This document shows positions 3,321-20,924 of a DNA stretch of 20,924 bases, piece after piece (the stretch's first letter is position 1; each line of letters begins with the position of its first letter). Made by a program: the position numbers and the translations under genes. Below the pieces are notes generated by a model, which saw only the letters and a program-made list of their open reading frames with translations, had not been told where the DNA came from and searched no databases. Source of the DNA: a virus; the IMG/VR virus record IMGVR_UViG_3300009502_000237, positions 1 through 20,924 of that record; one strand, written 5' to 3'.

Positions 3321-6300
3321 TTATATATCCACAGCTCTTCTATCTTGTATTACTTCATACAAGTCTGGGTTTCTGTAATAATCTTGCCATTTTTCTAACG
3401 TGTCAATTTCAACATAGCAATCTTGTATTTTTGACAAAAAGAAATTAGATATAATATCATCAAGTAATATAACTTCGATATTAATAATGTTATTGTTTTT
3501 ATCTTTTACAATGCTTTCGATAACGCATTCGATATCTCCACCATTTGTTTGATGAGGCAAATTAATATTTATATGTTGGGCAACGTGCCAATCTCTCGCC
3601 CACGAATCATCTGAAGCAACATATACATACGGGATATTAAAAGATACCCTACGCAACCCCATGCGGTTTACCCATTTTGTAATATAGGCAAGCGCATCAG
3701 AATATGTTGTTATCATTTCGCAATCGGTCAAGTCAGAAGGGGCAAGCTCGATCTGTCGGAATCTATTCCAAAGCGCATGGCACGCTTCCCAAACTTCTTG
3801 GCCGTCAGTCCCCTGAAACCCCGGCGTCAATTCTGGTTCCCATCCGATTCCCGCTGTGTGTATCGTTCCGTCTGTTTTCGTGTAGGTGGAATCTGCGCTA
3901 TTTAATACCTGCAAATTCTTATCAAACTTTTGTGATCCTGGGTTATACGAATAATTTATAAGAGGATTTACAAAAACGTCTTGTGATTTAGGCTCCTTCG
4001 TTGCGCCAATATCATCTACAATTGCACTTAGTGAAATAGTGGCAAGTGTCGAAGCAACCCCGATAGTGTTCTTTTTTGTGAATACATCCTCTACGCACTC
4101 ATACCCGTCTTTGTCTTGATATGTGCAAAGTCCGTAACGCTTACAAATGAGTTCTGCGATTTTATCAGTGCCCGCTTTGTCCCTGTCGAAGATCTGAAAT
4201 GCTGGGCGATAGGTATACAATTCAGCGGGAAGGTTGTCGTATGATCCATCCACCGCACCGATTCTTATTTTGATAGAGGGAGAATATTCTTTCCCAAAGT
4301 CAACAGCATCACCATACTCTGAACCGTTCTGCAATCGTTTTACGTGTTCCAATATGGCAACTGGGTTGTCTATAAGATCCGTAGCAACAGCACCGTATCG
4401 AGTTGCAAAAGCAGTGTCATTATAAATGCGACCGCCGAACATTGCATAAATATCTTTTGAAATAGAATAGGATTTTTCACAGATGAGAGCCAGTTCGTAA
4501 AGACGCTTTATTATTGTATGACTATCTATCTGAATTACTGGTGGCGACCCCATGCTAATAGCAACAGGATGCTCGAATCCTTGCAAAAAATACATCTTAT
4601 GAATAGATTTTAAATTTTCTTTTGATTCTATTGGAATTTTGAAATTTTTGTGATATCCAATATCTGTTGACATTTCATTTATTAATAAATTATAATAAAA
4701 ATGCTTATTATTATCATTGTCTGTTCTTGTTAAATAATAAAAATCAGGAAGATTTTTTATTGTTGAAAAACCATCATTTATAGATAAAACAGTATCAGAA
4801 TAATAAACAGTATCTACGCTGCCTATTTTAGATGCGTATTCACTCGATGCTGTTTTTAGGCCAATAAATCTTTTATATAAAATTTTTGAAAAATGCTTAA
4901 TTATTATAGGAGGAGCAAACTCATTAGTTATTGCTGTTTTTGATTTAAAATCAATTCCTAAATAAAACGAATCATAATTAATAAGTATTTTATCTTTTGG
5001 AATATCAAATTCCCATACAGCTATGACCGTTCTAGTTGATAATGATGTAGCGTGCGAATGTACTTTTTGTTCATAATACGTAGAATCATTTCTATCTACA
5101 CAGTCAACAGATAATGATCCAGAATATTCATCTGCCGACAATGTTGATTTCTCACCAAACCAATTAGTATTTGCGATAAGGTTTGTATATGCTCCATTAA
5201 TTTCCTTTACAATATCATCATTAGTATATTTAATTATATTTTCCATTTGGAAAAAATCATACGTCACCAACTGGTTAGGATCATTCTTGAATAGTTTTAA
5301 ATCAATAATAAGTTTATTTTTCAGCGCGTCAACTACACTGGAGTATCCGTATTGCGGTATGAGAGTACAACCTACTTGATCAAGTGATCGTTCTTCGGTT
5401 GTTACTAAGTCAGCTGTAGTAGTAAACTTGCTTGTGTATTTGCCTGTTGAATCGCTATTGTAAACAGCAAGACGCGGATAATCGGTTGCTGCTATTGCGT
5501 CACCGTTCTCATCAATAAACCCCTTGCACGGCCATGTATCAGCTGTAAACTCAAACGGAATATCTACAATCATTACCCATGCGTTATTCTCTGCCGTTGC
5601 ATCGCTACTTACGCAAAGATTTTTTTCAAAGAACGAATCAAGACAAATAATAATTCCAAGTCCACTATAATCAATTACATACCCTTGTCGTATTGTAACC
5701 GACGTATTGGATATTGCATTTGCGGAAACGGTAATTGTGTCGATTGTTTTGTCAAGGACTGTCCAGTCAAATAAATTAGCACTAGCTGAAGCAAATCCGG
5801 CGTTTAATGTCACGCGTGAACCAGTAACTATGTTTGACGTATCGGATACTTCCGTTATTATCGGAGAACCACTTGTTGTTGTTCCGATTATTTGTGCATA
5901 CTTTCCTATCTTTCGGTATACACCTATAAACGAATCGTTTCCATCAGCAATCGAAGCGCCGCCCACTGTTATTTTTATATACTTTTCACTTGGATTAAAT
6001 GCGTTGATAATAGTGGTAAGGGGATCACCGCTTGTCCCTCCAGTTCCAAACTTTAACTTATAGGCAAGATGCGGGGAATTAGTATCCCCAACGGCTACTA
6101 CAGGAAATGTATTCGTTCCCTTTGGGGTCAAATAGACTGTGTCACCCGAAAAATCATTTGTAAATACTGTTTGTTTTGCGGAAACACGATTAAACTTTGC
6201 ATAAGATTTCACTTGTGTTGCAGGATCAACACTATCATTTACATAAAATTTCCCAAACGTCAAAGGAACTATTATTCCGTTTTGATCGTCGAGAGCTTTT

Positions 6301-13980: not shown

Positions 13981-16104
13981 TTAAGCACCGGCATTCTTTC
14001 CGATACCGCGCCAATCGGAAGCTCCCACAGCAAATATTGACATAAGATCCCAGACGATTCCGCGAGCCTGTCCGATTTCGGATGGTGCCGAACGAATCTG
14101 AGGGGCTTCTTCACCTGCGAGAGTCGCAAGTACAAGATGCTGCGCAACATTCGAATCCGCTGCGAAATACCATGCAGTTGTTGACACTTCGTCAATGTAC
14201 GGCGTGGTAATAAGCTCGATACCCATAGATGCGAACGGATTGACAATTGCAGGGTTTGTCTGGCTGTTGCTCCCGGTAGAGTTTGTATATGCTGCGGGTG
14301 AACCGAGAACCTGCTGCCACTGCGACCACTGGGTTTCACCGGTGATGATATACTTGATAGGAGCTTGCGTATACTGTGCCTTGCTCACGCCATCTGGTGC
14401 AGGCAGTTTGATCGAGCGCAACAGTTTTCGGGCTTCGGCAAGCGACGGCGTAGAAGGTGCCGCACTTGATCCGATGTTCGCATGTGTCGAATGAAACATT
14501 GGCTGTGAATCTTCGTTCATTGTCGGGCCAACAACTCCGGAGCCTGTTCCTTCGGAATTTCCGCGAATGAGGAAGTTATACGTTGCGCGATCTTTCTTGC
14601 GTGCAACCGCTCCACCCATGGCGGAAGGGATGCGAGAGAATGCCGATTTGTCGTCGTTGACAATCGCCTCAAATGAAATCGAAAATGCTTTCATGTATTT
14701 GTAAAGCGTGATCAGTTCGCCCTTATCGGCGAACCGGCCCCATTCAGGATTTTTGCCTTCAGGAACCCAGTCGATATCCGAGAAATTGGACATGTTGACA
14801 AGTTTATTCTGTTTGAAATCGTTGAGAGATTGACGACCGATCCAACGATCATACGTTGTCTGAATCTCGTCGTAACCCTTCATCAAAAACTTGTTTGCAG
14901 CAGCGGCAAGAATATACGCAAAGTCGCCGGAAGCCTGAGCAATCGCGCCGCGTGAACCAAAATTGCCTCCCATTATTTCGCGCGCAATTTCGTTTGCGGA
15001 CATTGTGAGAACGCCCTTTGCGCCGGAACGCTCGAGACAAACTTTTGCAAGTGCCTGGAGCCCGTCAACGCCGCGAATCTCTGAGCCTTCAACCTTTTTT
15101 GCGCTTTCGGAATCGATGCGGCTTGCTCCGATTGCGTTCCGAATACATATCGCAGTTGTCGCAACTTCACGGAATTTATCGGCTTCATCTGCTGTGATTG
15201 CAATGTTGCCGCCCTGTTCCCCGGGGTTCTTTGCAGCGACCATACGTTTCTGCGCTTCGACGATAAGTTTGCGCTGTACGTCAAGAGCGGGTGTCAATTT
15301 CGAGAGATCTTCTCTCACGAAATCAATTTCGATTCCAAGCTCACGGCAAGAATCTTCGATCTGATTTCTGCGCGAACCTTCAGCCTCAAGAGCTTCCTTG
15401 ACTGCTGCTTTCCGAATGTTGTCCACGTCAACTGTATTTGCAGTGGGCGCGGGTGTCTGACCTTCTACGTTGTCGGCCATGAGAGCCTCTCTTTCTTTGA
15501 TGTTAGAGTTACGGTCACGGAACTTGCTTCTCGCATCCGCGCCAATTGGAGTCGTAGATATTTCAAAAGGTTTCCAAATTGTTCGAACAGCCATTCTCAT
15601 TTTGCTGTTTGTGTTATCGTACTCTTTTCCGTTCACTGTTCCACGCTGTCCCGGCTCAATCCATGATGTTGCATCCGAGAATGTCTGATACCCGACTGAT
15701 AAATCAGTCAAGTGGCCCTCACGCGCAAGTGTCGCAATATCATCGGCAAGCGAAGAGAAATAAACGTCTGTCTCACTTGTCCCATTGTTCATGTTTTCCA
15801 TATTGCGGCATGAACCGCGAACAGAGCAAGACCCTTCGCCGCGACTATGATTGTCAAGTAATGGCACTTGTCTATTTTCTGGCAACTGCATACCATCCAT
15901 ACAAAGAACTTCACGTATGAGATCGTCTTGGCTCCAATCGTATACAGTTACAGGCTCTTCACTTGAGAAAATAGCGCGGCATTTGCGTTGCGTAACGCTT
16001 CCCTTCTCGTCTTTCTCTTCCACATAAGAACCTGGAGCAAAAGAACGATATAAACCGCCATCAATTAAATTTTCCTGCTTGTTTTCATTATTGTTCTTCG
16101 GCAT
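13981..16104 (-). CDS. Prohead protease - scaffold - major capsid fusion protein
   Basis: A 707-aa protein with two recognisable parts in one frame. Residues 1 to about 200 look like an S78 (HK97-type) prohead protease: PLLDNHSRGEG with His86, LTDLSVGYQ with Ser136, and WKPFEIST with Glu181 followed by PIGADARSKF, the order His, Ser, Glu expected for the active site. Residues about 209-310 are helical and charged, like a scaffold (delta) domain. Residues about 310-707 are the capsid subunit (KDRATYNFLIRG, APIKYIITGETQWSQW, TTPYIDEVSTTAWYFAAD). The gene overlaps the portal by 17 bp and starts after AAGGAAG. It is clearly richer in G+C than its neighbours. An in-frame ATG at 15480 with good ribosome binding could yield capsid alone. 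Confidence 0.85.
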   Translation of the reverse strand: MPKNNNENKQENLIDGGLYRSFAPGSYVEEKDEKGSVTQRKCRAIFSSEEPVTVYDWSQDDLIREVLCMDGMQLPENRQVPLLDNHSRGEGSCSVRGSCRNMENMNNGTSETDVYFSSLADDIATLAREGHLTDLSVGYQTFSDATSWIEPGQRGTVNGKEYDNTNSKMRMAVRTIWKPFEISTTPIGADARSKFRDRNSNIKEREALMADNVEGQTPAPTANTVDVDNIRKAAVKEALEAEGSRRNQIEDSCRELGIEIDFVREDLSKLTPALDVQRKLIVEAQKRMVAAKNPGEQGGNIAITADEADKFREVATTAICIRNAIGASRIDSESAKKVEGSEIRGVDGLQALAKVCLERSGAKGVLTMSANEIAREIMGGNFGSRGAIAQASGDFAYILAAAANKFLMKGYDEIQTTYDRWIGRQSLNDFKQNKLVNMSNFSDIDWVPEGKNPEWGRFADKGELITLYKYMKAFSISFEAIVNDDKSAFSRIPSAMGGAVARKKDRATYNFLIRGNSEGTGSGVVGPTMNEDSQPMFHSTHANIGSSAAPSTPSLAEARKLLRSIKLPAPDGVSKAQYTQAPIKYIITGETQWSQWQQVLGSPAAYTNSTGSNSQTNPAIVNPFASMGIELITTPYIDEVSTTAWYFAADSNVAQHLVLATLAGEEAPQIRSAPSEIGQARGIVWDLMSIFAVGASDWRGIGKNAGA
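15478..15491 (-). promoter_or_regulatory. Internal ribosome-binding site and start inside the protease-capsid gene
   Basis: GAGAGG at 15491-15486 stands 5 bases before an in-frame ATG (15480-15478, Met209). It lies exactly between the protease part and the scaffold part. Starting here would make a 499-aa scaffold-capsid protein without protease, giving many capsid subunits per protease, as nested genes do in lambda (C/Nu3). Confidence 0.55.
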
Positions 16105-17620
16105 TTACTTCTTCCTTCGGTGAAAAGTTATTTTCCTTTGCCGCAATCTGGGGAATCACTGCGATTCCCATTTCTTCACGCATTTTCTTTTCTTCTGATA
16201 ATTCAGCGTACAGTACATCGCGATTTTTACCAGTCTGTTCGCATATGTCGTTATCAGATACCCACCCCGCATTCTTTTCTGCAATAAGCGCCTGCATATC
16301 CTTGAGCGGGTCAACCCATGCCCAACGATCAGGCGTCCAAACAGCGCGGCAAAAGCCCCATTTATTCTGTCTGAAATCTGATATTGTTTTACCAGAAATA
16401 AAGCCAGACAAAAAAGCCCACTGTACAAATTTATCGTATACTGGTTGGCAAAATGTACGCTTAACAAATTCCTGTTTCTTCTGGTAATATCTGCGCCGAT
16501 CCTGTACGGTTGTACGCGAGCTGGAAAAAGTTGCGCCCCGGGTGTCCGTTGTCAATTCCTGAAAAGAGATTCCCATTCCAACCGCAACTTGCTGCAAATA
16601 CAAATCAAGCATTGCGCCATATGTGTCTTTTATGCTATCAGATGCCTGTATAATCTCGGGCTTGACTTTACTTTTAAAGACTTTACCGGGAGACAAAGAA
16701 ATGTTTCCATCGTTGTTTTTTTGTGATGGATTAAACGCTTTGCTGTCTTCACTTACCCATAAAGCAATTGCAGCTTGTATCCTGCTTGCAATTATCCTAT
16801 CTTCCTGCAATTGCGAAAGATCCCATAGGGTAGTGAGAACCGGAGCAAGCCAAGGAATACCGATAAATTGATTGAAATGCCATTTTTCATACCCGTGAAT
16901 CATGTTATTTGCGGGCATGTCAAAAAACATCCAAGTCAACAAATCTTGGAAGTAATAATGCTGTGCTTCACCGAACTCATTTACTTGCACGCCGTTGAAA
17001 ATCATCGGCATTACCGGCATTGCAAAATTATCATGTGAAAATTCTATGTATGATTGGTCAATCTGTTGAAAAGCGAAAGGAAATTTATTGCCTTTTTGAG
17101 ACGGGACATAATTAAGAAAAAGTCCACCGGAGATACAGCAATTTCCCACATACTTATACTGGACATCATAGAACGAATCATGATCTGGACGAAAACATTG
17201 ATCATTGAATATTTGCCAAAGAGAATCGAGTTCTTTTCCGAGTGCTTTTGTGCCTTCATCTTCGACACCGTCTTTATTTAGCGGTCTTGCTCTTGGAGAA
17301 ATTCCGCGCCCGACTATCTGCGATTGCAAAGCGCGTACTGCATTCCGTGCATATGGATCTGTATCGTATGCTTTCTTTGCACGCGCGTATATTCGTCGAT
17401 ACTCAAGGCGCAAAACATTTTGATCGACAAGTACGGAAGGGTTCCAATCTTGACGGCTTACACTCACGTCCGCTGCTGGATAGTATCTTTCCGCAATACG
17501 CCCTATTTCGCGGCTGAAATGAGCGTCAAAACGCGGATCGGGAGGCATGATTCCTTTACGGAACATACTATAATTGCTTACATGCTCACGAATTGACGCA
17601 ATAGGATTTTTAAACGCCAT
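16088..17620 (-). CDS. Portal protein, lambda B family
   Basis: A 510-aa protein of the lambda-type portal family (lambda B is 533 aa). Indicators are an N-terminal region with RIYARAKKAYDTDPYARNAV, typical of the family, the VGRGISPRARP segment, a stem-type region (QQVAVGMGISFQELTTDTRGATFSS), and the later YQKKQEFVKRTFCQPVYDKF helix. It forms the dodecameric DNA channel at one capsid vertex and is the site where terminase docks. The start shares one base with the gpW-like stop (TAATG). The C-terminus overlaps the protease-capsid start by 17 bp and is acidic (PKEEVNAEEQ). Nothing looks truncated. Confidence 0.9.
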   Translation of the reverse strand: MAFKNPIASIREHVSNYSMFRKGIMPPDPRFDAHFSREIGRIAERYYPAADVSVSRQDWNPSVLVDQNVLRLEYRRIYARAKKAYDTDPYARNAVRALQSQIVGRGISPRARPLNKDGVEDEGTKALGKELDSLWQIFNDQCFRPDHDSFYDVQYKYVGNCCISGGLFLNYVPSQKGNKFPFAFQQIDQSYIEFSHDNFAMPVMPMIFNGVQVNEFGEAQHYYFQDLLTWMFFDMPANNMIHGYEKWHFNQFIGIPWLAPVLTTLWDLSQLQEDRIIASRIQAAIALWVSEDSKAFNPSQKNNDGNISLSPGKVFKSKVKPEIIQASDSIKDTYGAMLDLYLQQVAVGMGISFQELTTDTRGATFSSSRTTVQDRRRYYQKKQEFVKRTFCQPVYDKFVQWAFLSGFISGKTISDFRQNKWGFCRAVWTPDRWAWVDPLKDMQALIAEKNAGWVSDNDICEQTGKNRDVLYAELSEEKKMREEMGIAVIPQIAAKENNFSPKEEVNAEEQ

Positions 17621-17823
17621 TAAAAGTACCCTTTTGGTGCAAAAGTAGCCTGATATATCCCGCCGTTCTCTTCTTCTGCCATTTTCCGCTTCGCGTCTAT
17701 CAAGTCGCTTGCTTTTGTATAATCAATGCGCCTGTCTCCAATTGTTAAAGAAGATATGCCGCGCCCTGCGTTTTTTGCCGCTGCGTCGTCGATTGCATTC
17801 AATTCTTCAGGCGTTATTGTCAT
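17620..17823 (-). CDS. Head-tail joining protein, gpW-like
   Basis: A 67-aa protein with the length and layout of lambda gpW: an N-terminal helix (TPEELNAIDDAAAKNAG), a short beta hairpin with SLTIGDRRIDYTKAS, and a second helix (LIDAKRKMAEEE). It sits between the terminase region and the portal as in lambda and overlaps the portal start by TAATG. gpW closes the filled head so the tail can attach. The ribosome-binding site is weak (AGGT about 4-5 bases before the ATG). A strong terminator ends 18 bp before its start, so it needs read-through, antitermination or another promoter. Confidence 0.8.
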   Translation of the reverse strand: MTITPEELNAIDDAAAKNAGRGISSLTIGDRRIDYTKASDLIDAKRKMAEEENGGIYQATFAPKGYF

Positions 17824-17841
17824 TTTTACCTATTTTTAAAT

Positions 17842-17905
17842 AAAAAAAAGGCGGTTTTCGGGCATTTAAAAACGTAAAAACGCTTCTAAACAACCGAAAA
17901 CCGCC
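17842..17905 (-). terminator. Strong intrinsic terminator between terminase and gpW/portal
   Basis: A perfect 12-bp stem, GGCGGTTTTCGG (17905-17894) with CCGAAAACCGCC (17861-17850), is followed on the minus strand by eight T (17849-17842), then ATTTAAA. The loop region has an inner stem, GCGTTT (17883-17878) with AAATGC (17867-17862), stacked on the outer stem. The T run is only on the minus-strand exit side, so it acts leftward. Confidence 0.85.
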
Positions 17906-17930
17906 CAGAAATACAAAGAACATCCTTGTC
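17842..17930 (-). ncRNA. Candidate short RNA (about 90 nt) in the terminase-portal gap
   Basis: A promoter-like pair of boxes at 17965-17937 predicts transcription from about 17930, and the strong terminator ends it at about 17842. The product would be about 90 nt, mostly the compound terminator hairpin with a 25-nt leader and an unpaired 10-base bulge (TTGTTTAGAA). It contains a 38-codon frame from 17923 with no properly spaced ribosome-binding site, which I do not accept as a gene. Function is unknown and existence is a prediction. Confidence 0.4.
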
Positions 17931-17965
17931 CGATTAAGTATAATATATACTAAAATCGGTCACAA
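17930..17965 (-). promoter_or_regulatory. Sigma70-like promoter over an operator-like palindrome
   Basis: On the minus strand TTGTGA (17965-17960) and TATACT (17942-17937) are 17 bp apart, close to sigma70 consensus. The -10 and spacer lie inside an imperfect palindrome at 17930-17959: outer arms CCGATT and AATCGG, inner arms AGTATA and TATACT, with a 3-bp centre. A dyad placed like this often is a repressor site. The terminator begins 25 bp beyond the predicted start. Confidence 0.55.
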
Positions 17966-17991
17966 TGCCACATTTGTTTTATATTTTTTTA

Positions 17992-18204
17992 TTATTTCTC
18001 AAATATAAGAATTACCCTCAGGCCTGATTGCTCAATTTTACCTATGTATTTCGCCCCATTTGCCCACTGTTTTTCGAGTTCCGCGCTCACGTTGCCTTGC
18101 TCCACATCGACCTTGTATTGTCCTTGCTTGTTGATACGCAACCCGTCATGTTGCGGTCGGTTTTGATGTTGTTGCACCTGTGGCCTGTTGTTTGATTGCA
18201 TCAT
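17992..18204 (-). CDS. Gln-rich 70-aa protein between terminase and gpW
   Basis: A 70-aa protein that begins MMQSNNRPQVQQHQNRPQH, a low-complexity Gln/Asn/His/Pro-rich region, and then has a short ordered part (INKQGQYKVDVEQGN, WANGAKYIGKIEQSGLRVILIFE). AAGAAGGTG lies about 7 bases before the ATG at 18204, and 36 bp separate it from the large terminase stop. Lambda has no gene here, between A and W. The large terminase C-terminus is likewise Gln-rich (EQRQQQQRSTEQQ), so an interaction or shared expansion is possible. I do not recognise a family. Packaging accessory or head completion are guesses from position. Confidence 0.6.
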   Translation of the reverse strand: MMQSNNRPQVQQHQNRPQHDGLRINKQGQYKVDVEQGNVSAELEKQWANGAKYIGKIEQSGLRVILIFEK

Positions 18205-18240: not shown

Positions 18241-20214
18241 TCATCTCATACCCCCTGATTTATTCCACCGATCTTGTATGCCGCTTAGAAAATTATCGCT
18301 TTGCTGTTCAGTTGATCTCTGTTGCTGTTGCCTCTGCTCCTGTTCCTCTCCTTTAACCTTTACATATTGATCATCTTTCAACGTTTCGATATTCTCAACA
18401 TTAAATAGATAGTTGTCAAGCTCTATAAACACATATGCCGCCTGAATATAGTTTTCACAATCGCGCATATGGTCATCGTCGCCGTGTATCCAAACCTTCT
18501 TTGTATTCCCTTCCTTATCGCGCTCTTCCCTGTCATACTGCTTTACAAATTGTCTTATATAGTCGTTGCTTATGTTCTCCGGCAAATGCCAGTTATCTTT
18601 TGCACTGTCAACCGCCACAATGCGAGATAAATTCTGAGTATTTCCAAGGTATAGACCATTGTTTCCTTCACGGATAAGCGGATTTATCTTACTTGCAGAC
18701 CCGATATAGGCATATAAAAACGGTATTGTTGCAACAATATGATCTACAAATTTCTGTTTATGACCGCCTCTATCGATAAACCCCGCCGATATTTCCAGCT
18801 TTCGGTTATCTTTTGTAATCAATTCCTTGCCGTAAAGACGCTTTTTTACCTCTTCTGTGACGTATTCCGGTGATTGATCTTGCCCCATTTCGCAACGAAT
18901 GAGCCCGCAATCAAGCAACCATGATTCTTTTCCGTATCCGAAGCCTCGCAGGACAAAATAAAACTCCGCGTCCTGTGTATCTATACCACACAACACACAT
19001 AAAACGCCTTCCGGTATACGCGCATCATGCGTATTATAAGATCCACATTTTCCCCGAAGCCATTCGGTAGATTCTTTCTCTGTTGTTATGCTTGCGAACT
19101 CTCCCATATCCTCATTTAGAAAGGTTCTGATCTTTACAATATCACTCGTCTTTTGCGCTTCGAACCAACGCGCCAACCCCTCAGAAAACTTAAACGAATA
19201 GTCAACGAACCGGTTCCATTGAAACGAAACAGAATTATAATCGCGCCGCTGCGTTATTTCCCCGGCATTGCTTATCGTCTCACCCTTTGCACCCCATACC
19301 ACCCTTTGCCCCATATCGATACGGTCACGCTCTTGTATTGTGTTTTGACAATGAACACACTCGTAATATGCGGCCTCTGTTTGCCGGATCCTGTCCGGGT
19401 CGTGGTCGCATACTTTTTGCTGGTTAGGGATCTCTTTTATCTGCTCAAGTTTAAACTCCTGGTATCGTCCGCATTTAGGGCAAGGAAATTGCGGCCGCAA
19501 ATTGAGAACGCCACTCTTGAACATTTCCTTATGTAAAACATCACCCTCTTCTATCGGGGACGATTCGAGTATTTCTTTTTTCTTACCGATCATCCCGTAT
19601 GCTTCTTGCCGTCCGCGTAATTGTTTTATCACATCGAAATTAGACCGCTCCGAATCCTTGTCCGCTGTGGGATATTTGCATACTTCACTTGCATATATCA
19701 AACCGGCTGAAAATGTCGCTATGTCACTTTTGACTAATGCAGACGCTACTCTGATAATACAATTTCGAAGCGTGATCTTTTCTTTTGTAAGGTGATCCGG
19801 ATTGCCATCCCATAAACGGGCAAGGCGTGGCACCTGTTCAATAGTCGGCTTAATTCTATCCTGAAAAACATTCTCCACCGTGTCGCGCTTGGCATAACAG
19901 AACATCCCATGAAACCCGTATGTATCTACGCAGTACCATACTGCAACCTCCGCAATAAGTGATTTTCCCGTTTGCACCGGCCCGCAATAAATCACAGAAT
20001 TATACTTTGCAATCGCATTCAACGGCTCGATCTGCCACGGATACAATACAAGTTTTCCAGTACTTGCGTATCCAGCCCCAGGCATGAGTATAAAGTATTC
20101 TTCGGCCCATGCAGAAGGGAGTTTCGGCTCTTCCATTGCAAATGAGTCGCGCTCTCCCTCAACGAATTTATGATCGTCTTTTGCTGTAGGAAATATCAGT
20201 GTGTTCTCAGTCAT
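18241..20214 (-). CDS. Large terminase subunit, GpA family
   Basis: A 657-aa protein of the lambda A type (641 aa), the ATP-driven packaging motor and cos-cutting nuclease. The N-terminus has LPSAWAEEYFILMPG, then a Walker A box GPVQTGKS at residues 78-85. The Walker B position reads GLIYASEV (residues 171-178), with Ser176 where Asp is usual and Glu177 as the likely catalytic acid. Zinc-type CPKCG and CVHC pairs lie near residues 240-285. The nuclease part has LCGIDTQDAEFYFVLRG, with the Asp expected in GpA enzymes. The C-terminus is Gln-rich. The start overlaps the small subunit by 8 bp. Confidence 0.92.
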   Translation of the reverse strand: MTENTLIFPTAKDDHKFVEGERDSFAMEEPKLPSAWAEEYFILMPGAGYASTGKLVLYPWQIEPLNAIAKYNSVIYCGPVQTGKSLIAEVAVWYCVDTYGFHGMFCYAKRDTVENVFQDRIKPTIEQVPRLARLWDGNPDHLTKEKITLRNCIIRVASALVKSDIATFSAGLIYASEVCKYPTADKDSERSNFDVIKQLRGRQEAYGMIGKKKEILESSPIEEGDVLHKEMFKSGVLNLRPQFPCPKCGRYQEFKLEQIKEIPNQQKVCDHDPDRIRQTEAAYYECVHCQNTIQERDRIDMGQRVVWGAKGETISNAGEITQRRDYNSVSFQWNRFVDYSFKFSEGLARWFEAQKTSDIVKIRTFLNEDMGEFASITTEKESTEWLRGKCGSYNTHDARIPEGVLCVLCGIDTQDAEFYFVLRGFGYGKESWLLDCGLIRCEMGQDQSPEYVTEEVKKRLYGKELITKDNRKLEISAGFIDRGGHKQKFVDHIVATIPFLYAYIGSASKINPLIREGNNGLYLGNTQNLSRIVAVDSAKDNWHLPENISNDYIRQFVKQYDREERDKEGNTKKVWIHGDDDHMRDCENYIQAAYVFIELDNYLFNVENIETLKDDQYVKVKGEEQEQRQQQQRSTEQQSDNFLSGIQDRWNKSGGMR

Positions 20215-20683: not shown

Positions 20684-20924
20684 TTAACTCCATTTAACTA
20701 AAAATATATTTGCTTTTTATGCTTGGTCTAAATTATGTTGAGCATGTCCTATGCAAAACAATCCTGCGAAACACAAGGCCAGCTAAGCCACCGATCTTTT
20801 AACTATGCAATTTTTACCGCTTTCATAGCTAAACATACACCATTTTCAATGTTTTCTATTCCTTTTTCAATAAATAGCCAATTTTAAAAATTTTTCATGG
20901 AGTTTTTGAGAGGCCGTCGAATGC
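20684..20924. other. Non-coding stretch upstream of terminase, possible cos/packaging region
   Basis: No acceptable gene lies here. On the plus strand CATTTAACT occurs twice in tandem 10 bp apart (20681-20689 and 20691-20699), overlapping the terminase start, and TTTAACT recurs at 20798-20804. Two TTTTCAAT copies lie near 20843-20871. In lambda-like phages with Nu1/GpA, cos with Nu1-binding repeats lies just upstream of Nu1. A minus-strand frame enters from the right edge and stops at about 20868, too short to judge. Confidence 0.3.
20822..20849 (-). promoter_or_regulatory. Weak candidate promoter for the terminase operon
   Basis: On the minus strand TTGAAA (20849-20844) and TATGAA (20827-20822) are 16 bp apart. 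The region is A+T-rich, so such matches arise by chance, and it could equally lie inside the packaging site. It is the best sigma70-like pair I see before the small terminase. Confidence 0.25.

Follow-up and report, generated by a model that had tools for sequence, protein, structure and literature searches.

A conserved promoter-leader-terminator unit between terminase and gpW that may gate a phage head operon

The terminase-gpW junction

The stretch of DNA analysed here (the window) comes from an IMG/VR virus record and spans 20,924 bp. Its late operon lies on the minus strand and carries, in order, genes for TerS, a gpA-type TerL, a 70-aa ORF (ORF70), a gpW-like adaptor, a lambda-family portal protein, a protease/major-head fusion, and the tail genes. 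The protease and major head protein form one fused ORF (13981-16104), as they likewise do in Rhodobacter phages. Immediately before gpW is a gap of 168 nt (17824-17991), whereas the remaining operon junctions range from -38 to +65 nt. An earlier sequence-only reading had drawn attention to a gap of this length in an otherwise nearly gapless operon, and both observations hold. That reading had set the gap directly after terminase, but ORF70 (18204-17992) intervenes. Read 5′ to 3′ on the minus strand, the gap holds TTGTGA-17-TATACT, a dyad around the -10 element, a leader with a 7-bp hairpin, a terminator hairpin, and a T8 tract, after which gpW begins at 17823 (Table 1). The gap sequence is present in a single copy in the contig, and an origin from a repeat or mobile element was rejected for this reason.

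Table 1. Features of the terminase-gpW junction in the window
Feature	Position	Strand	Evidence or remark
Terminase large subunit TerL (gpA type), upstream neighbour of the unit	18241..20214	-	Pfam GpA_ATPase E 7.6e-24, GpA_nuclease E 4.8e-22
ORF70, small ORF between TerL and the unit	17992..18204	-	no Pfam or PHROGs match
-35 hexamer TTGTGA	17960..17965	-	counterparts TTGACA (L015), TTGACT (L176)
-10 hexamer TATACT, spacer 17, predicted start about 17930	17937..17942	-	counterparts TATATT in L015 and L176, spacer 17 in both
Imperfect dyad CCGATT..AATCGG around -10, possible regulator site (weak)	17930..17959		fold
Leader hairpin ACAAGGA-TGT-TCTTTGT	17913..17929	-	fold
Long terminator hairpin, 26-nt arms, 4-nt loop	17850..17906	-	fold, hairpin scan
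T8 tract of terminator; predicted RNA 3′ end	17842..17849	-	sequence
gpW-like head-tail adaptor, first gene behind the putative gate	17620..17823	-	phrog_2545 head-tail adaptor Ad1 E 1.5e-4
Portal protein, start of head operon	16088..17620	-	Pfam Phage_portal_2 E 1.6e-46

The terminator is the top hairpin of the entire 20.9-kb contig, with a score of 24 compared to 15 for the next hairpin and 19 for the best of 20 shuffled sequences. The gap as a whole folds with a z-score of -6.85, and none of 200 shuffles folds as well. The two arms are 81% complementary, and the stem-loop is followed directly by the T8 tract, as in an intrinsic (Rho-independent) terminator. Thus, the T8 run noticed in the earlier reading does follow a hairpin, but the 12-bp stem described there is in fact a far stronger structure with 26-nt arms.

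The promoter proposed in that reading is present on the minus strand at 17965-17937. It scores 9/12, a value equalled in 7% of equivalent windows. A dyad does surround its -10 element, but the 30-bp palindrome (CCGATTTTAGTATATATTATACTTAATCGG) is imperfect and unremarkable. Specifically, it forms 12 pairs with an asymmetric internal loop, its fold is equalled by 2.7% of the contig's segments, and the ungapped dyad is equalled in 10% of 55-nt windows. Taken alone, the palindrome is close to chance, and was rejected as an operator because it is no better than that. Elsewhere in the window, a near-perfect promoter match between two tail genes (TTGATA-17-TATAAT, 11/12; 10250-10222, minus strand) is possibly a second internal late promoter.

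Conservation of the unit with sequence turnover

When used as single-sequence queries, TerL and the portal protein returned only L003, a near-identical contig (99.99%) that represents the same virus, and a genome-contig search for relatives gave no match. A profile scan found two diverged relatives, L015 and L176, whose TerL, portal, and capsid proteins are 50-59% identical to those of the window depending on the alignment method (56-58% for TerL), and whose gpW-like adaptors are 54-61% identical. Contigs L177 and L187 belong to the L015 virus (100% identity over 18.8 kb) and were not counted as independent. In this same virus, genes judged from their sequences to be glycosyltransferase-like lie just upstream of the packaging genes (L185, 889-5590). 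The window (at 20924) and L003 (at position 1) share an exact end base 241 bp upstream of TerS, and L187 begins 168 bp upstream of its own TerS, whereas L185 runs on past that point. Such coinciding ends may reflect a physical end of the genome of the cos type, or may come from mere re-assembly of the same reads.

Both relatives keep the order TerL, small ORF, promoter, short leader, long hairpin with a T run, and gpW. In L015, an ORF of 69 aa is followed by TTGACA-17-TATATT (11/12) and by a hairpin with 24-nt arms and T8 before gpW. L176 has an ORF of 93 aa and a 503-nt gap, in which TTGACT-17-TATATT (10/12), with an extended -10, stands directly before gpW together with a hairpin of 27-nt arms and T6. 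The hairpins of the two relatives span 23-27 bp with T6-T8, and in all three genomes (3/3) the terminator before gpW is the strongest hairpin of the sequence searched. The joint probability of the three promoter scores at the same place is about 1.6e-4 relative to AT-rich windows, and the weaker promoter of the window is credible only because of its two counterparts. The predicted RNAs are 84-98 nt long, with about 89 nt for the window.

Primary sequence has not been kept to the same extent. The DNA of the three units cannot be aligned beyond short motifs, the stem sequences are entirely different, and the longest stretch common to the three RNAs is a GYTCTTT core. With only three distinct members known, covariation is not countable in this clade. 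Near the start site, the relatives share with the window at most a short CCGAWTA-like motif, and the palindrome is not kept. Thus, of the dyad and hairpin for which conservation had been sought, the hairpin persists in structure and place whereas the dyad does not persist as a palindrome. The repressor control suggested earlier is not supported: its one positive sign is this dyad, itself weak and not kept as a palindrome by the relatives. The window also carries TTGTCCGATTAAG at 17926-17938 (plus strand), resembling TTGACCGATTAAA of L176. The latter is an exact repeat that occurs twice in the L176 gap (3327-3339 and 3503-3515), and is a possible regulator site. A match between Clostridioides phage DNA and the L176 promoter region is surrounded by unrelated genes and was discounted as a chance similarity of AT-rich DNA.

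The leaders also share a boxA-like site ahead of the terminator hairpin. The core GYTCTTTA is exact in L015 (GCTCTTTA) and L176 (GTTCTTTA) and has one change in the window (GTTCTTTG, 17921-17914), with a joint probability of 5e-4 relative to AT-rich windows. Compared with the boxA consensus GYTCTTTAANA (PMC5725501), the match is 8-9/10 in the two relatives and 7/10 in the window, a copy matched by 18% of windows, and it is only suggestive because the site was spotted before the consensus was looked up. In the window the site overlaps the 3′ arm of the leader hairpin, where GTTCTTTG could base-pair with ACAAGGA of the 5′ arm; L015 allows pairing of CTTTAT with ATAAGG. The small leader hairpin may therefore be an alternative reading of the boxA-like bases. 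As a sole explanation boxA is weakened, since the window copy deviates exactly where pairing with the 5′ arm of the leader is possible. The likeness to lambda nut sites and rrn boxA antitermination (NusB-S10) extends to the GYTCTTTA core ahead of a hairpin in L015 and L176. The differences are the deviating window copy, the lack of a recognised N-type protein or boxB, and the hairpin, which is here a terminator.

ORF70 matches no family in Pfam or PHROGs, and its structure model is unusable (pLDDT 56). Its positional counterparts in L015 and L176 are 22-27% identical, have a similar C-terminus ending F-x-K, and match DUF4177 weakly (E 0.02 and 0.08).

An analogous unit in a second phage group

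In a set of 133 diverse TerL-portal loci, the interval separating the two genes is enriched in terminators (7 in 57 kb versus 16 in 605 kb downstream, P = 0.0026), although the independent part of this signal is smaller because the count takes in L015 and L176 themselves. The terminators of this interval lie 244-330 nt before the portal match. Starting from three loci (L096, L098, and L102), a gpW scan assembled a second group of 64 loci with 47 distinct upstream regions, 44 of them alignable. In these 44 distinct loci the order is dyad, promoter, hairpin P1, CCCAATA, terminator hairpin, TTATTGGG, and gpW. The dyad, TTACYA..TRGTAA, is centred near -53 as estimated by eye, and the P1 loop is palindromic (TGATCA or TGGCCA). 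A strong terminator folds in 44/44, in 25 distinct versions, and its outer CCCAATA/TATTGGG pairing is exact in 41/44. Compensatory changes that alter both sides and keep the pair occur in four P1 pairs and three terminator pairs.

A covariance model of this group recovers L097, which is absent from the model, with an E-value of 6.6e-12, but gives no match to the units found in the window, L015, and L176. Thus, the two groups share architecture and locus rather than a sequence family. Neither group matches Rfam, at the gathering score for the window or at E <= 1 for seven relatives. The two-hairpin leader RNA with its promoter and dyad (L188-L251), situated about 170 nt upstream of gpW beside a zinc-ribbon ORF, is apparently undescribed.

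The unit of the second group is usually preceded by this small zinc-ribbon ORF (39 distinct proteins), for which a fold search gave weak matches only, none at E <= 0.001 and the best to Rpb9-type zinc ribbons. In L191 and L231 the unit persists with no such ORF directly upstream, and the type of small ORF varies between phage groups (zinc ribbon, HTH_17, DUF4177-like). A small zinc-binding protein gene beside a promoter with a dyad near -53 recalls, for the second group only, the late activators P2 Ogr and P4 delta. Ogr sites lie near -55. However, the Pfam Ogr_Delta match is below threshold (E 0.09), a leader terminator follows the promoter, and the feature is absent from the window.

Cultured relatives, MinM1, RcOceanus, and Pd_22F among them, leave 0-61 nt from TerL to the head gene that follows, and most (MinM1, RcOceanus, S-CBS3, and others) are without any such unit, so that expression of head genes does not generally depend on it. 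Our literature search found nothing on a unit between terminase and portal.

A candidate gate for the head-and-tail operon

A promoter, a short RNA, and a terminator had been proposed to form a self-contained unit, and this proposal is borne out by its retention at the TerL-gpW junction of both diverged relatives and by the analogous unit of the second group. Judged by these sequence comparisons, a conserved promoter-leader-terminator unit is real. From its architecture we infer promoter activity, termination, antitermination, and a responsible factor. Because the unit is kept in diverged relatives and the arrangement recurs in other phage groups, it probably serves to make a short default RNA and to time the reading of the capsid genes.

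We consider the chances about even that the unit is a regulated leader/terminator gate for the head-and-tail operon, by analogy with lambda pR′-tR′. Transcription would begin at a sigma-70-type promoter and, about 25 nt further on, meet a very strong intrinsic terminator, immediately followed by the gpW ribosome-binding site. RNA polymerase would by default make the short RNA and then stop, and transcripts arriving from terminase would also be halted. A phage or host factor might render polymerase termination-resistant, permitting read-through into the gpW, portal, capsid, and tail genes. Because polymerase would stop at the gate unless termination-resistant, the packaging genes would be uncoupled from the structural genes. 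No recognised Q, N, or other antiterminator is present among the proteins scanned from this incomplete contig; candidates are the adjacent small ORF and boxA-binding host Nus factors.

Lambdoid pR′ yields a short RNA that ends at tR′ unless Q is present, and in Stx phages this leader RNA, StxS, is also a regulator that functions as an sRNA (reviewed in PMC12101431). Like pR′-tR′ (6S RNA/StxS) with Q, the window and its two relatives have a promoter followed within about 200 nt by an intrinsic terminator, with a short predicted default RNA and late genes behind. The unit differs in being placed between TerL and gpW rather than before lysis genes, in its unusually long hairpin, and in that neither a Q homologue nor a Q-binding element was identified here.

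The main rival, which we regard as rather unlikely, is a gene for a trans-acting small RNA whose targets would be host or phage mRNAs or a protein, and whose place before gpW would be a convenience. A promoter and terminator do bracket a compact structured RNA in the window, L015, and L176, the nearly invariant loops and CCCAATA/TATTGGG stem of the second group suggest a specific partner, and StxS offers a precedent (PMC12101431). However, the window-clade RNAs share no stretch longer than their GYTCTTT core and so have no conserved base-pairing seed, and in every case gpW follows shortly after the end of the terminator. Persistence of promoter, hairpin, and place despite turnover of primary sequence favours a cis-acting gate. 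Among the regulatory RNA, decoy, antitermination site, and checkpoint put forward in the earlier reading, an antitermination site or checkpoint best fits the strict placement before gpW, whereas the differing stems speak against a conserved base-pairing target.

Phage moron cassettes are a further comparison, since here too an extra small ORF and a terminator separate genes that are neighbours in relatives. An insertion of this kind, with the promoter-like match arising by chance in AT-rich DNA, is less probable still, even though ORF and gap are both absent from cultured relatives, the small ORF differs between phage groups, and the window promoter is weak by itself. Morons have their promoter before their own gene. 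Here the conserved promoter lies between the ORF and the terminator in the window, both relatives, and the second group, and L191 and L231 have the unit with no small ORF directly before it. Ahead of ORF70 are only weak promoter matches, which lie inside TerL (best TTGACA-17-GAGAAT, 10/12, 18419-18391). A simple attenuating terminator, which would lower head-gene transcription relative to terminase without regulated read-through, is very improbable: the hairpin and its T8 tract would suffice for it by themselves, but a dedicated promoter just ahead would not be needed, and full termination would silence the abundant capsid genes.

More broadly, and with somewhat less assurance than for the gate itself, we suggest that several phage groups acquired a promoter-leader-terminator gate at the terminase-gpW junction, whether independently or through very old descent, and often beside a small putative regulator gene. 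If so, the gate would be a widespread checkpoint of late transcription that has gone undescribed, and the roughly 110-nt two-hairpin RNA of the second group would define a new RNA family in phages.

The usual picture of a head operon is a single uninterrupted late transcript. A dedicated start-and-stop signal within one, retained through sequence turnover and met again at this junction in other phages, suggests that control is exerted between the packaging of DNA and the production of capsids. These units also offer compact promoter-terminator parts amenable to testing, and a candidate for a new family of phage RNAs that numbers dozens of members.
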